A DNA stretch of 29,140 nt from a virus. Made by a program: the position numbers and the translations under genes. Below the pieces are notes generated by a model. That model was given only the letters and a program-made list of their open reading frames with translations, was not told where the DNA came from and did not search any database. The stretch lies in the IMG/VR virus record IMGVR_UViG_3300025168_000445, positions 1-29,140 of that record. The stretch is one strand, 5' to 3'. This document shows, piece by piece, positions 12,441 to 22,417 of this stretch; within the stretch, counting starts at the first letter, position 1, and each line of letters begins with the position of its first letter.

Positions 12441-13436
12441 CTAACCTACATCCTTTTTTGATGTGTTGCGTTTTAGTGAGCGAATTCTCTTCATTATCTC
12501 ATATGCCACTTGTGGGACTATTGCGTTTCCGAGTCCTTTAAGTCGGTCCACCCGATTGGAAACCCCATTAGCCACTCTACCCACATCGGGTTCAGCTTTC
12601 CATCGCTTGGTTTTAATTCCTTGTCTCTGATCACCACTGCCGCATTGAGTGATAAAGTACGCCTCTTCCCCAATGATTTCCTGTTCAATTGACTTTGGCT
12701 TCCCGTGTTCTTGCTGTCGTTTGTTGTCGGTGTCGGAAACATTTCTTTCATATGTACCGCTTGACTCAGATTCACGGAATGCATCGACCCTGGTTTCTGT
12801 TGGCTGCTCTTGAGTTTGCCTGTCCATGTGTCTGCTGTTGTTGGCGTTGGAAACATCGCTGCGAAGTGATGCAGACTCACTCCGTGCATTCCGCCCTCTT
12901 TTATATTCGTGTCTTTTCTTAGATTCTTTCCATCCCGATGATTCATCGTGTCTGGGGTAGGCACATATCCAGATCCTCTTTCTTCTATGCCAAGCTCCCA
13001 CTTCGTCTGCTCCAATAATTTGCCATTCACAATCGTACCCGATTTCGGTAAGGTCGCAGAGAACTCGTTCAATTCCTCTATGAATGAGCATTGGTACGTT
13101 TTCAATAATTGCGTATCTAGGTCGTACTTCGCTAATGATGCGATACATTTCTGACCAAAGACCAGACCTCTCTCCTTCAATCCCTACTCCTTTTCCAGCG
13201 ATAGAAATATCTTGACATGGGAAACCACCAGTAATGAGGTCAATGTCTTTAAAATTATTTCCATCAAGTTTTGTAATATCATTATGTATTGTGACACTAG
13301 GAAAATTCTTATTAAGAACTTTCTGAGCATACTTATCTATCTCGCAGAACCCAACCAGGTCAAGTTCATCACCCCAGTTCCACTGTGCTGCCAGTGCAAA
13401 GCCACCAATCCCACTAAATAAATCGAGCATTTTCAT
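12441..13436 (-). CDS. DNA (cytosine-5) methyltransferase
   Basis: A 331-residue C5 methyltransferase. Motif I is DLFSGIGGF (5-13, AdoMet site); Glu32 is motif II. Motif IV is GGFPCQD (70-76) with nucleophile Cys74. ENVP (112-115) is motif VI, HRRKRIWI (150-157) motif VIII, and GLGNAIVPQV (about 304-313) motif X. The stretch between VIII and X (about 160-290), where the target recognition domain should be, is polar and low-complexity (NANNSRHMDRQTQEQ, NVSDTDNKRQQEH), unlike a folded domain. This is the part that is also open in another frame. Target site unknown. It may protect phage DNA from host restriction. The nuclease-like gene at 13438 lies just upstream. Confidence 0.93.
   Translation of the reverse strand: MKMLDLFSGIGGFALAAQWNWGDELDLVGFCEIDKYAQKVLNKNFPSVTIHNDITKLDGNNFKDIDLITGGFPCQDISIAGKGVGIEGERSGLWSEMYRIISEVRPRYAIIENVPMLIHRGIERVLCDLTEIGYDCEWQIIGADEVGAWHRRKRIWICAYPRHDESSGWKESKKRHEYKRGRNARSESASLRSDVSNANNSRHMDRQTQEQPTETRVDAFRESESSGTYERNVSDTDNKRQQEHGKPKSIEQEIIGEEAYFITQCGSGDQRQGIKTKRWKAEPDVGRVANGVSNRVDRLKGLGNAIVPQVAYEIMKRIRSLKRNTSKKDVG
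12518..13180 (-). CDS. Second protein encoded inside the methyltransferase gene (220 aa)
   Basis: A 220-codon open frame lies wholly inside the methyltransferase gene on the same strand in another phase. It starts at TTG 13180, 6 nt after AAAAGGAG. Its product is not random-looking: SLAKYDLDTQLLKTYQ (15-30), FSATLPKSGTIVNG (40-53), RGSGYVPTP (68-76), two repeats MFPTPTTAD and MFPTPTTND (109-117, 147-155), and NPMWVEWLMGFPIGWTDL (197-214). From memory this is the pattern of a recurrent phage/bacterial family (SLARYDP..SSWKTSQ ... WPRSG ... PTPTA.D ... WVEWLMGFP) usually seen beside methyltransferases. Function unknown. It is either a true overlapping gene or a conserved shadow frame. Confidence 0.6.
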   Translation of the reverse strand: MKERGLVFGQKCIASLAKYDLDTQLLKTYQCSFIEELNEFSATLPKSGTIVNGKLLEQTKWELGIEERGSGYVPTPDTMNHRDGKNLRKDTNIKEGGMHGVSLHHFAAMFPTPTTADTWTGKLKSSQQKPGSMHSVNLSQAVHMKEMFPTPTTNDSKNTGSQSQLNRKSLGKRRTLSLNAAVVIRDKELKPSDGKLNPMWVEWLMGFPIGWTDLKDSETQ

Positions 13437-13437
13437 C

Positions 13438-13875
13438 TTAGGTCCACACAGGAAAGTCTAAGTAGTTATAGAACGAGTCTCTTTTCTTATTCTGATTATT
13501 CTTAGCTCTTTTAAAAGCTAATGATATTCTCTTTTGTCCTTCCCAAGGTACATAAGCTATCTTTTTGATTGGTGTAAAGAACACCGCAAAGACATCTATC
13601 TTATGATTTGCCTCTAGGTGCTTTCTAAAGTCTATCTCTACTGATGTTTCTGTTTTGGGCGAGTTGATTGTTTTAACCTGAACTTTTCTAAAGGTTGTTC
13701 CTGTATCTACAAGTATATCTACACCCTTATCATCCACTATTGGTCTATAGACATCGTACTCTGGATAATTAATGGTCAAATCGTGAATAACTGCTGTTTC
13801 CCCTATAATTCCACTCTTCATCGTAGAAAAGTGCCCCATATCCTCCTTTGTTGGAGGTTTCTCATCATAAGGCAT
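13438..13875 (-). CDS. PD-(D/E)XK nuclease-like protein next to the methyltransferase
   Basis: A 145-residue protein with the PD-(D/E)XK order: GETAV (Glu26), KGVDILV (Asp53) and KVQVKT (Gln66, Lys68), then a strand pair (IDVFAVFFTPIKKIAYVPWE) seen in group-I-intron endonuclease/PDDEXK_5-like proteins. It lies 2 bp upstream of the methyltransferase in the same operon. It could be a resolvase-like nuclease, a homing-type nuclease, or the restriction partner of the methyltransferase; sequence alone does not separate these. The small size favours a resolvase-like or nicking role. Confidence 0.7.
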   Translation of the reverse strand: MPYDEKPPTKEDMGHFSTMKSGIIGETAVIHDLTINYPEYDVYRPIVDDKGVDILVDTGTTFRKVQVKTINSPKTETSVEIDFRKHLEANHKIDVFAVFFTPIKKIAYVPWEGQKRISLAFKRAKNNQNKKRDSFYNYLDFPVWT

Positions 13876-18582: not shown

Positions 18583-19676
18583 AATTCCTCTTCTATTCTC
18601 ATAGACACATTGTAATGATCGTGGGCTACTTGAGTCATGGTTAAGGAATCTTGACCAAACCTGGCGAACATGAAATCAGATTCTGCACCATCAGCGGCTG
18701 TGTCTTTGTCTATACAAAATATAAACGGTCTTGTCGGACCATCGGTCATGTTCCAAATATCAGAGACTACAGTGTCATCTGAATAAATATAAGTGCTGCT
18801 TTCTATTGGGAGTAACTCAGAACTATTTAAGAAAGAAAAATTTAAATCATATGTTATCCTACCTCCATATACTTTTTGAGCATCAGTAGCTAGAGTAAAT
18901 GGACTTTTTGAAGCAGACCCTCCAGTCCTTCCAAGATTCGTAGCAGATGCGTATCTTTGTCCCCCAACGGACTCTTGAATCTTTACTTTGTCATATGTGA
19001 TGTTGCGACTTAGCTCTAAGTCAGGACTGAATGGCATTTCAAACGACTCCCCAATCATGATCCCACCTAGAGTAAAATCCGTGCTTCCCCAGACTCTATC
19101 GTTCTCACTTCCAGTTCCAACTGAAGCATCAGCTTGTAGATTACCTTCAAATTGAATAGCCCAATAACGCAAATTCTTTTCTGTAAATTTAATAACTGTA
19201 GTCCCATCTGTGAGTGGAGTTATTACTACACTTTTATTTCCACTTGCAACATTGATATTATCAGCGTTTACAACTTCAGTTGTGGTGATGTTATTCCATT
19301 CAGCATCAGTATCTGGGTCTGTAGTATCAACATTAGCCCCATTCAAAGCGGTAACATCACTTGCAAGGTTACCAGCAAAAACTCTTATTTTCCCAATTGA
19401 TGTAGATAAGTTGTGATTTAAAATTGCAATGTAATTTTGCTTATGAGATGCGGTTGAAAATGCAAAAGTGCATAAGACATGACCGTCACCACTTGTATCA
19501 AAGGTGACTAGGTTCAATGGTTTTAAATCTAGTAAGTCTGCTACTGTCTTATCACTTGGAAGCCCTATGAAATCACCGCTAGTTGCCGTTACTGCTCCAA
19601 TAGCGGACCCACGACCTCGATGATAACCTATTAAGTCTGGATAAAACTTTGGTGTACGAATATTTTGATTAGCCAT
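18579..19676 (-). CDS. Tail-tip associated protein, unknown
   Basis: A 365-residue, beta-rich protein with few charged helices, last gene of the late operon. It contains repeated Asp/Thr/Asn-rich strands (NGANVDTTDPDTDAEWNNIT) and a closing strand block (DSLTMTQVAHDHYNVSMRIE). The upstream gene is the LamG tail protein, and its stop overlaps this ATG (TAATG, with AGGTAGGA before it). Position after the tape measure and tail-tip gene suggests a distal tail or receptor-binding role; this is inference. Confidence 0.65.
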   Translation of the reverse strand: MANQNIRTPKFYPDLIGYHRGRGSAIGAVTATSGDFIGLPSDKTVADLLDLKPLNLVTFDTSGDGHVLCTFAFSTASHKQNYIAILNHNLSTSIGKIRVFAGNLASDVTALNGANVDTTDPDTDAEWNNITTTEVVNADNINVASGNKSVVITPLTDGTTVIKFTEKNLRYWAIQFEGNLQADASVGTGSENDRVWGSTDFTLGGIMIGESFEMPFSPDLELSRNITYDKVKIQESVGGQRYASATNLGRTGGSASKSPFTLATDAQKVYGGRITYDLNFSFLNSSELLPIESSTYIYSDDTVVSDIWNMTDGPTRPFIFCIDKDTAADGAESDFMFARFGQDSLTMTQVAHDHYNVSMRIEEEF

Positions 19677-22417
19677 TATCCTACCTCTCGTGCTGTAATA
19701 CTCACTTTTCCAAGTGAGCGTTTTGTTTCTATTACCATATAATACTTACTTGCTGAAAACCTTGTTCCAAACATTTCTACTGGCATATCTGTAAATGTAA
19801 TTATATCCCCTGTCTCTAATTGACATCCTTTCATTGGATTGACTACATCGCAAGAGACCAATATCTTCATATCCCCAATAATGTTATTATAATAAGAATA
19901 AAAATCAGCGTTACAATCTGCATTTGCTGATGTTGGAATTGTTCCCACGTTCATGTCAAGATTGACTTGTTTAATGCCTTCTTTATCGCCAAGATTATAT
20001 TTAGCCCTATTTGCATTATTAGATATTGATTTATTTGCAAAATATTTTTGTTCTGCTGGGCTTAAATCGTTTGAAATATTCATTTTTGTAACAATACTAT
20101 TAATTCCAGTGGTGCTAATATTTACCTTATCAATGTCTTGGCTAGTTAAATTTAATGTCGCAGATAACTCGCTACTTTTCTTTACATGGATATACTTTAA
20201 AGTTCCTGTAGGTGTAAATTTTGCTACAAATCCAAATTCATATGCTATCTTATCAAGAGCTTGTTTTAAGTTTGTAGGTTCTAACTGCCAATATCTAACT
20301 TTCCAATTATCAATTGCTCTATCCGTATTTAATGAACTCCAGTTATCTGGGTCAGTACTAGATATACCAGCAAATCTTTGTAACAAATCACGGTGTGCAT
20401 CGTGTCCATGTGCTATTGCACCACTGTCCCAGGATGCAGTTAATCCATCTCCTCCAGAATATAAATATTTAAGATTACTTAGCTCTGAAGAATCTTGTTC
20501 ATCTTCGTCAGCATTTGTTCCTCTAAATATTCCCACTTCTGCTTCCATTTGTATATCTGAAACAGAAATTGTTTTACCAGACGCTCCATATATAAAAACA
20601 ACTGCAGAATTAAGATCAGTTGGGTAATCATCGGCTGCCGCCACATCTATTGTAGCGATGTTTGTAGCATTGGTATCCGTTACATTAATTGTCCCTGCAC
20701 TCACAGTGCTTCCAAAAACAACACTAGCACTTTGAAATGCAACATTAACTGTAACATTTCCTGTCTGTGACGCTTTAAAATAAATATAAACTTTTCTAAT
20801 TAATGTTGCAAAAAATTTTCTAGGTGGTCCAGCAAATCCAAGTACTAAACTTCCTGTGGTTGTTCCTGTGCCAGTTGTTGCTGCGGTTGCAACTGTGGTG
20901 CTATCTCCATCAAAGGCTTTGTATGTATCGGTAAATGTTATTATTGAGGTTGATACGTCTGAGAATTTACACCTTACAATTCCGTTGAATCTTTTATTTA
21001 AAGGAGAAATTAAAACATTAATATCCTCTTGAAGTTCTGTTTCATCCTTTATTGGGTGTGAACTTGTAAATGTAGATAGTGGTAAAAAATTAGCATCACC
21101 TAACCATAGGTTAACATGGCAATTAGAGCCATCTGCATACGACTTAGGCATTAATGTTGTTACATCATTTTGAGATGTGTTTACAACTGGTATTGGATAT
21201 AATGCAGTACCAACAAAGGTAGGCGATCCTGCCGTGCTAGTATTCGGAGTAAAATCCCCATACACAGTAGGTATGTACACATTATATTTACTTGATTTAT
21301 CTTGAGGAAATTCAATCTTATCCCAGGGTCTATGAGAATTTATCTGAATAGTAATGTTTTGGTCTTGGTTTAATTTCATATCAACAATTCTACCAGAAAA
21401 TATTTGTTGACAGCTACTTAAGGTGTCTTCTCCCTCAAATTGTGCATAAACACGGATTTCTTTATTGTGGTAATTATTAGTCCCGTTAAACAATAGTTTG
21501 TAGAAATCAGTTCCATGTATGTCAAAATTTGCACTCGTAACGCTTATGTTTCCTGTATTAGATGTTGACTCTACCAAATCAATACTATCTCTTATCGTAA
21601 TGTTTTTATTTAACACCGAACCATGATAGAACTCAGAACTAACAGTTGTATCCTTAAATGAAATTCCAAAAGCATGGATAAAGTTATCAAATCCATCGAT
21701 AGACCACGATGCGCCAGTGATAGTGCCAGAATTGCTATTAGAGCTTGAATCTGCAACACTAGCACCAGTGCCTTCGTCTAATTTCCAATAGGACACTAAG
21801 CCAGCATGTGTGCTATCAACTAATCTATTATAATAGTGTGATATCTCATCTGCTGTTCTTGCCGTATCCCACACACGAACATGAGCAAGCTCTCCATTAT
21901 ATCCATTGTTATTGGCAAAATTATTACCAATGGTTAGGTCAGCATCAGCACTTGTTCCACCAGTAGGGTCATTAGATGCGGTTTCTGTTTCTACTAATGT
22001 TCCATTCTTATAAAAATACGCTTCACCACTTGAATCATCCCTTACAACTGCTACATGAGTCCAAGTATCTGCACTAAGGTCAAAAGATGATGTAGTGTTT
22101 GATTCATTGCTACCGCTTCCGTACTCGTAAAACAATTGAAATTCGCCACCGCTTTGAAGATTAACATTAAATGATACATTTTCATCTGCATCTTCGCCAG
22201 AGCCAGCTGAAAGTTGAATGACCACACCGCCACCTATTGCATCAGCTTTACACCAAAATTCTACAGTAAAATTAACAAATGGTGTCGATAGAATATTTCC
22301 AAAATTTATATTATCATCAGAGCCATCAAAATCTAAACAGTTCTTATTATCAGCAGTAAACTCAAATAACCAGTTCTCATTTACATTAGAATTTACAGGA
22401 GGATTTGATAATGCCAT
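19676..22417 (-). CDS. Tail-tip protein with inserted LamG/concanavalin-like domain
   Basis: A 913-residue protein. After a short tail-type strand (NENWLFEFTADN) comes a LamG-like lectin fold, about residues 27-225, with the hallmarks LDFDGSDDNINFG, FTVEFWCKAD, WTHVAVVRDD, AYFYKNGTLV, LTIGNNF and ELAHVRVWDTARTADEI. The tail framework then resumes (AFGISFKDTTVSSEFYHGSV, IRDSIDLVESTSNTGNISVT). A second half rich in beta strands follows and ends near a region like tail hub domains (TGDIITFTDMPVEMFGTRFS). LamG domains bind sugars, so this may contact cell-surface glycans. It is encoded right after the tape measure. Confidence 0.8.
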   Translation of the reverse strand: MALSNPPVNSNVNENWLFEFTADNKNCLDFDGSDDNINFGNILSTPFVNFTVEFWCKADAIGGGVVIQLSAGSGEDADENVSFNVNLQSGGEFQLFYEYGSGSNESNTTSSFDLSADTWTHVAVVRDDSSGEAYFYKNGTLVETETASNDPTGGTSADADLTIGNNFANNNGYNGELAHVRVWDTARTADEISHYYNRLVDSTHAGLVSYWKLDEGTGASVADSSSNSNSGTITGASWSIDGFDNFIHAFGISFKDTTVSSEFYHGSVLNKNITIRDSIDLVESTSNTGNISVTSANFDIHGTDFYKLLFNGTNNYHNKEIRVYAQFEGEDTLSSCQQIFSGRIVDMKLNQDQNITIQINSHRPWDKIEFPQDKSSKYNVYIPTVYGDFTPNTSTAGSPTFVGTALYPIPVVNTSQNDVTTLMPKSYADGSNCHVNLWLGDANFLPLSTFTSSHPIKDETELQEDINVLISPLNKRFNGIVRCKFSDVSTSIITFTDTYKAFDGDSTTVATAATTGTGTTTGSLVLGFAGPPRKFFATLIRKVYIYFKASQTGNVTVNVAFQSASVVFGSTVSAGTINVTDTNATNIATIDVAAADDYPTDLNSAVVFIYGASGKTISVSDIQMEAEVGIFRGTNADEDEQDSSELSNLKYLYSGGDGLTASWDSGAIAHGHDAHRDLLQRFAGISSTDPDNWSSLNTDRAIDNWKVRYWQLEPTNLKQALDKIAYEFGFVAKFTPTGTLKYIHVKKSSELSATLNLTSQDIDKVNISTTGINSIVTKMNISNDLSPAEQKYFANKSISNNANRAKYNLGDKEGIKQVNLDMNVGTIPTSANADCNADFYSYYNNIIGDMKILVSCDVVNPMKGCQLETGDIITFTDMPVEMFGTRFSASKYYMVIETKRSLGKVSITAREVG

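Follow-up and report, generated by a model that had tools for sequence, protein, structure and literature searches.

A conserved second frame in a viral C5-cytosine methyltransferase gene probably encodes the recognition part of a naturally split enzyme

M.EcoHK31I has reportedly been known as a two-part enzyme since 1995, and its small gene is nested within the large one in a different frame. For this enzyme (YGGCCR), one study assigns motifs I-VIII and X to the large polypeptide and motif IX to the small one, with the predicted recognition domain placed in the large subunit (PMC3404938), and another describes it as naturally split (PMC3439449). M.AquI (CYCGRG) also consists of two chains, the small one holding the later stretch of the recognition region together with motif IX; more generally, fragment complementation is well documented for C5 methyltransferases, and the C-terminal pieces of M.SssI that complement best have their start past motif VIII and ahead of the recognition domain (PMC3404938).

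The locus described here lies in a stretch of viral DNA of 29,140 bases (hereafter, the window), which also carries genes for terminase, tape measure, primase/helicase, exonuclease and PAPS reductase, among others. On the minus strand, the alpha frame (12441-13436; 331 aa) encodes a C5-cytosine methyltransferase with motifs I-VIII and X (PF00145, E = 1.3e-50; TIGR00675; phrog_363), and its catalytic domain matches M.HhaI and M.HaeIII both by profile and by fold. The catalytic motifs of PF00145 are all present: I, IV (PCQ), VI (ENV), VIII and X. Motif IV (GGFPCQ, with the catalytic Cys; 13212-13229) lies beyond the overlap described below and is kept in alignment A2, where G71, P73 and C74 are invariant and G70 and Q75 nearly so; motifs VI-VIII (ENVP ... 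HRRKRIWI) occupy 12966-13103; and motif X (LGNAIVPQ; 12510-12533) is likewise kept in A2, with helices at residues 295-304 and 308-330 in the structural model. A PD-(D/E)XK_5 nuclease gene at 13438-13875 ends one base before the start of alpha and may be a restriction partner or a mere neighbour.

The layout usual for PF00145, in which motif VIII is followed by the recognition region, motif IX and motif X in one chain, was not found in alpha. The model is confident for residues 1-165 and about 301-330, with a disordered stretch between them: disorder is predicted over most of residues 166-294, pLDDT is mostly below 50 over residues 166-278, and Foldseek aligns only about 165 columns with M.HaeIII and M.HhaI. 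As modelled, alpha is without a foldable recognition domain, and it is without a recognizable motif IX.

Nested in alpha, one base off on the same strand (the +1 phase), is a second frame, beta, of 220 codons plus TAG with a TTG start (12518-13180; phrog_1008, E = 1e-23), for which we propose the role of target-recognition subunit with motif IX. A candidate ribosome-binding site, AAAAGGAG (13187-13194), stands 6 nt ahead of the TTG within the alpha codons for GKGV. The segment encoding motifs VI-VIII of alpha doubles as the N-terminal part of beta, from the end of SLAKYD to LPKSG and further. The next segment (12603-12941) encodes the predicted disordered linker of alpha (residues 166-278); read in the frame of beta, it gives the proposed target-recognition region and its (M/F)PTPTxxD repeats. 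Beta motif IX (GKLNPMWVEWLMGFPIGWTD; 12542-12601) contains P198, W203, M205 and G206, which are among the seven invariant columns of alignment A1, and it is matched by the in-chain motif IX of single-chain relatives; the protein ends with GKLNPMWVEWLMGFPIGWTDL and a few further residues. The initial annotation had reported this stop-free frame and its spacing from AAAAGGAG, and the coordinates and phase, as well as both pairs of peptides that it read from the same bases in two frames, agree with the sequence.

Within the overlap, phases 0 and +1 contain no stop codon and phase +2 contains 22. With independent bases, the probability that the +1 frame is open is 2e-6, in keeping with the earlier rough estimate of 1 in 100,000 or rarer. 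When the synonymous codons of alpha were permuted, the +1 frame acquired 5.3 stops on average and stayed open in 3 of 10,000 trials (P = 3e-4); when codons were resampled from the codon usage of the window, it acquired 12.3 stops and was open in none of 20,000. Length alone is nonetheless weak evidence, because the window also contains a 224-aa antisense ORF (19953-20627) over a 913-aa gene (19676-22417), and it is conservation that decides.

A tblastn search with beta returned 70 phage records with identities of 27-49%, and almost all of the matches lay over a methyltransferase gene; at least 598 relatives were found in IMG/VR, and beta was also matched in sixteen bacterial contigs from several phyla. 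The overlap is thus widespread, as the initial annotation had suspected. In 118/118 fetched loci that have both proteins, a set that takes in loci selected by alpha alone, beta is in the +1 phase; the sole alpha-selected locus without beta (L102) encodes an HhaI-like single-chain enzyme. Over 16,290 codons from the 81 loci with a full alpha, the +1 frame contains 7 stops vs. 1037 in the +2 frame; five of the seven are close to the natural end of beta, leaving at most 2 internal. In L041 and L047, the first half of the beta frame is interrupted by a stop while alpha is intact; beta may be broken in these two loci or may start later. All 65 aligned beta proteins match phrog_1008, which is named DNA methyltransferase in PHROGs, and both frames are annotated in some GenBank records and only one in several others. 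A Pfam search with beta gave no credible match, and a PDB profile search gave only insignificant matches to glycolipid transfer protein. These counts support the claim of two proteins in two frames, and we regard the conserved overlapping gene as real and as much more widespread than the descriptions found in the literature.

Which frame is under selection was assessed in 15 independent close pairs, with alpha 80-99% identical. Over motifs I-IV, N/S was 0.26 for alpha and 5.9 for the +1 frame; over the linker, from motif VIII to the start of beta motif IX, it was 10.85 for alpha and 0.46 for beta; over beta motif IX, 2.92 for alpha and 0.40 for beta; and over motif X, 0.09 for alpha and 64 for the beta frame. 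In the linker, codon position 1 of alpha, which is the wobble position of beta, changes more than position 3 in 15/15 pairs, and the clade of the window itself shows the same pattern (window vs. L010: 36 N/3 S for alpha, 17 N/19 S for beta). Pairs that are further apart show less contrast in the linker, an effect to be expected should alignment and saturation interfere, and the constraint on beta motif IX stays strong (beta N/S of 0.4-0.5 at all distances). Over motifs VI-VIII alpha dominates and beta tolerates many amino-acid changes; the +1 frame of the nested loci has 2 stops in 6681 codons there vs. 185 in 8399 over motifs I-IV, and divergence at fourfold sites is halved in the closest pairs. 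Relatives whose motif IX is encoded by the alpha frame also show reduced synonymous change over motifs VI-VIII; they are an unclean control because 21 of the 34 keep the +1 frame open there.

The selected frame thus switches along the gene, from alpha in the first part to beta in the middle and back to alpha at the end, with each frame staying open through the territory of the other. The initial annotation had expected one frame to limit the other, and had named frequent breakage of the second frame without extra constraint as the outcome that would speak against two proteins; breaks in the second frame are very rare, and over the recognition region this frame is the more constrained one. The same annotation had seen a polar putative recognition region in the main frame: the polar stretch is there, but both pLDDT and N/S indicate that it is probably an unconstrained linker rather than a recognition domain. 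As selection in this segment follows beta, the polar middle of alpha appears to be a tolerated linker.

Single-chain phage C5 methyltransferases with PTPxxxD repeats (L138, L142, L145 and L161) point to what beta may be. After motif VIII these enzymes have, in one frame, LLPTPxASD repeats, PRLxAxFxEWMMGWPxGWVT and GNGVVPQQA. They have the catalytic motifs, the PTP repeats, motif IX (EWMMGWPxGW) and motif X in common with the window; they differ in that the recognition region (at least largely), motif IX and motif X all lie in the alpha frame of one chain, whereas the window distributes these parts over two frames. In hhalign, the beta profile matches the region of these relatives comprising recognition region and motif IX with a probability of 98% (E = 1e-13), and the alpha linker matches the same region with 0.1%. 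Since beta matches this region and the alpha linker does not, beta is most likely, judged by homology, the target-recognition region and motif IX of the enzyme itself and not an unrelated extra protein. Modelled alone, beta has low confidence (pLDDT 58), and a fold search with the model gave no match; such a lone fold suits a partner-dependent subunit and proves nothing.

Taken together, we consider the locus to encode a naturally split C5-cytosine DNA methyltransferase, with a catalytic alpha chain and a separately translated recognition chain, beta, from overlapping frames, and put the probability of this reading at about 0.82. Both frames are conserved, constraint switches by region, and beta is homologous in sequence to the recognition and motif IX region of single-chain relatives; translation start, assembly, activity and an anti-restriction role are what we infer for the enzyme. 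In the proposed mechanism, alpha would form the catalytic large domain, with motifs I-VIII binding AdoMet and carrying the catalytic Cys, and motif X would be rejoined through a disordered linker of ~120 residues, which would be no more than the beta gene read out of frame. Beta would form the small domain, made up of the target-recognition region and motif IX. The two chains would probably come from one message, with beta translated by internal initiation, probably at the TTG at 13180. AAGGAG-6-TTG or AAGGAG-9-ATG occurs in 21/101 nested loci, and the start and Shine-Dalgarno sequence are not enriched in the beta start region above the expectation from the alpha protein sequence and codon usage. 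Both chains would then assemble on DNA, beta selecting the sequence for methylation, and the enzyme would most likely guard phage DNA against host restriction.

A single-chain enzyme could also arise by recoding, if the ribosome, once past motif VIII, shifted from the alpha to the beta frame and perhaps returned ahead of motif X. In favour, the +1 frame holds the recognition region and motif IX at just the place that they would need to have in one chain, single-chain relatives exist, and the PRFect authors count methyltransferases among the genes known to frameshift (PMC10885494). However, the conserved SLAKYD ... LPKSG part of beta overlaps motifs VI-VIII and cannot share a chain with them, motif X would require a second shift back, and alpha is open throughout the region, although ribosomes that shift frame would have no need of this; we therefore regard recoding as unlikely. 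Still less probable is that beta is an independent protein of different function (e.g. anti-restriction or regulatory) overprinted on the methyltransferase. Its want of a structural match and of a Pfam family would fit such a role, but an unrelated beta would leave alpha without motif IX and a foldable recognition domain, would not account for the match to the in-chain recognition and motif IX region of single-chain relatives, and sits poorly with a beta that is always found over alpha in the loci examined (118/118).

Chance or a codon artefact as the source of the open frame was rejected on the shuffles, the stop counts and the N/S ratios. The related proposal that the second frame is an untranslated by-product of the conserved sequence and codon usage of alpha is, to our mind, the least credible of the three alternatives. 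AKYDPDT and WVEWLMG can partly be read as out-of-frame shadows of EVRPRY and VGRVADG, and the start signals are at chance level; yet synonymous shuffles almost never keep the frame open, stops are avoided far more strongly in the overlap than over motifs I-IV, and purifying selection over the alpha linker acts on the beta frame and not on alpha. The split enzyme with a separately translated beta remains the reading that we favour.

Relatives of the window show a range of layouts. The nested layout with motif X in alpha occurs in 105 fetched loci. In actinophage-type relatives (e.g. L127-L134), the +1 frame is limited to the recognition repeats and terminates close to motif IX, itself encoded in the alpha frame; in L003 and L124, the recognition region, motif IX and motif X are all in the second ORF, as in M.AquI; and others are single chains. 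In three loci (L042, L073 and L074), motifs I-IV are read in a third frame when compared with motifs VI-VIII, and alpha is either frameshifted or mis-assembled. C5 methyltransferases distant from that of the window, in Escherichia phage BEU35 (L166, 1088-1882) and Edwardsiella phage eiAU (L167, 1109-2530), likewise contain a +1 frame that is open over a long stretch and includes PTP repeats together with LNPAHSRWLMGYPPEW or LNPAHSRWLMGLPPEW, and in eiAU this frame continues into the next annotated methyltransferase. In Streptococcus phage Javan565 (L168, 1592-2272), the methyltransferase ends shortly past motif VIII and is overlapped by an ORF in the +1 frame that has WGMMRNGKCSTA and DILEEQVDERYFLS; this may be the same device with another type of recognition.

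We think it reasonably probable, with less assurance than for the window itself, that phage C5 methyltransferases include a very large family whose recognition half is a separate, overlapping +1 gene and whose annotated middle is filler. In this family, the position where the recognition half, motif IX and motif X come back into the catalytic frame would have moved repeatedly, so that phages could use the recognition subunits as separable parts. Phage genomes routinely show one annotated C5 methyltransferase at such loci; the nested frame either has no annotation, is called hypothetical or shares the name of the methyltransferase. Should beta indeed be the recognition subunit, an annotated alpha cloned or modelled alone would be an inactive enzyme, and specificity predictions from the middle of alpha would rest on filler. 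The family also offers a clear set of overlapping genes in bacteriophages, in which the selected frame switches within one gene and the same enzyme occurs in single-chain, split and nested layouts.

The two-polypeptide C5 methyltransferase is already known; what is new is the breadth of the arrangement, the switch in the selected frame and the existence of relatives that differ in the frame of the recognition half. In the limited set of literature consulted, we found no published description of the nested arrangement in phages. The ShiLan element (PMC11855218) resembles it in being a protein-coding second frame inside a phage methylase gene, but is a mobile, out-of-frame insertion of an HNH endonuclease unrelated to beta. 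In M.AquI the break lies inside the variable region, with motifs IX and X both in the small subunit, whereas the window keeps motif X in alpha; motifs IX and X were found together in the small chain neither in the window nor in the 105 loci of the same layout. A plasmid search for an EcoHK31I-like record returned 10 weak relatives, none annotated as EcoHK31I. The likeness drawn here to M.EcoHK31I is one of layout: the window likewise encodes two polypeptides, of which the large one has motifs I-VIII and X and the small one motif IX, and its small gene is nested in another frame. By this analogy, the system of the window would work like M.EcoHK31I. The two differ in the recognition domain, which was published as a predicted part of the large subunit of M.EcoHK31I and which constraint and homology place in beta in the window; if M.EcoHK31I belongs to the family of the window, our data would argue for reassigning its recognition domain.
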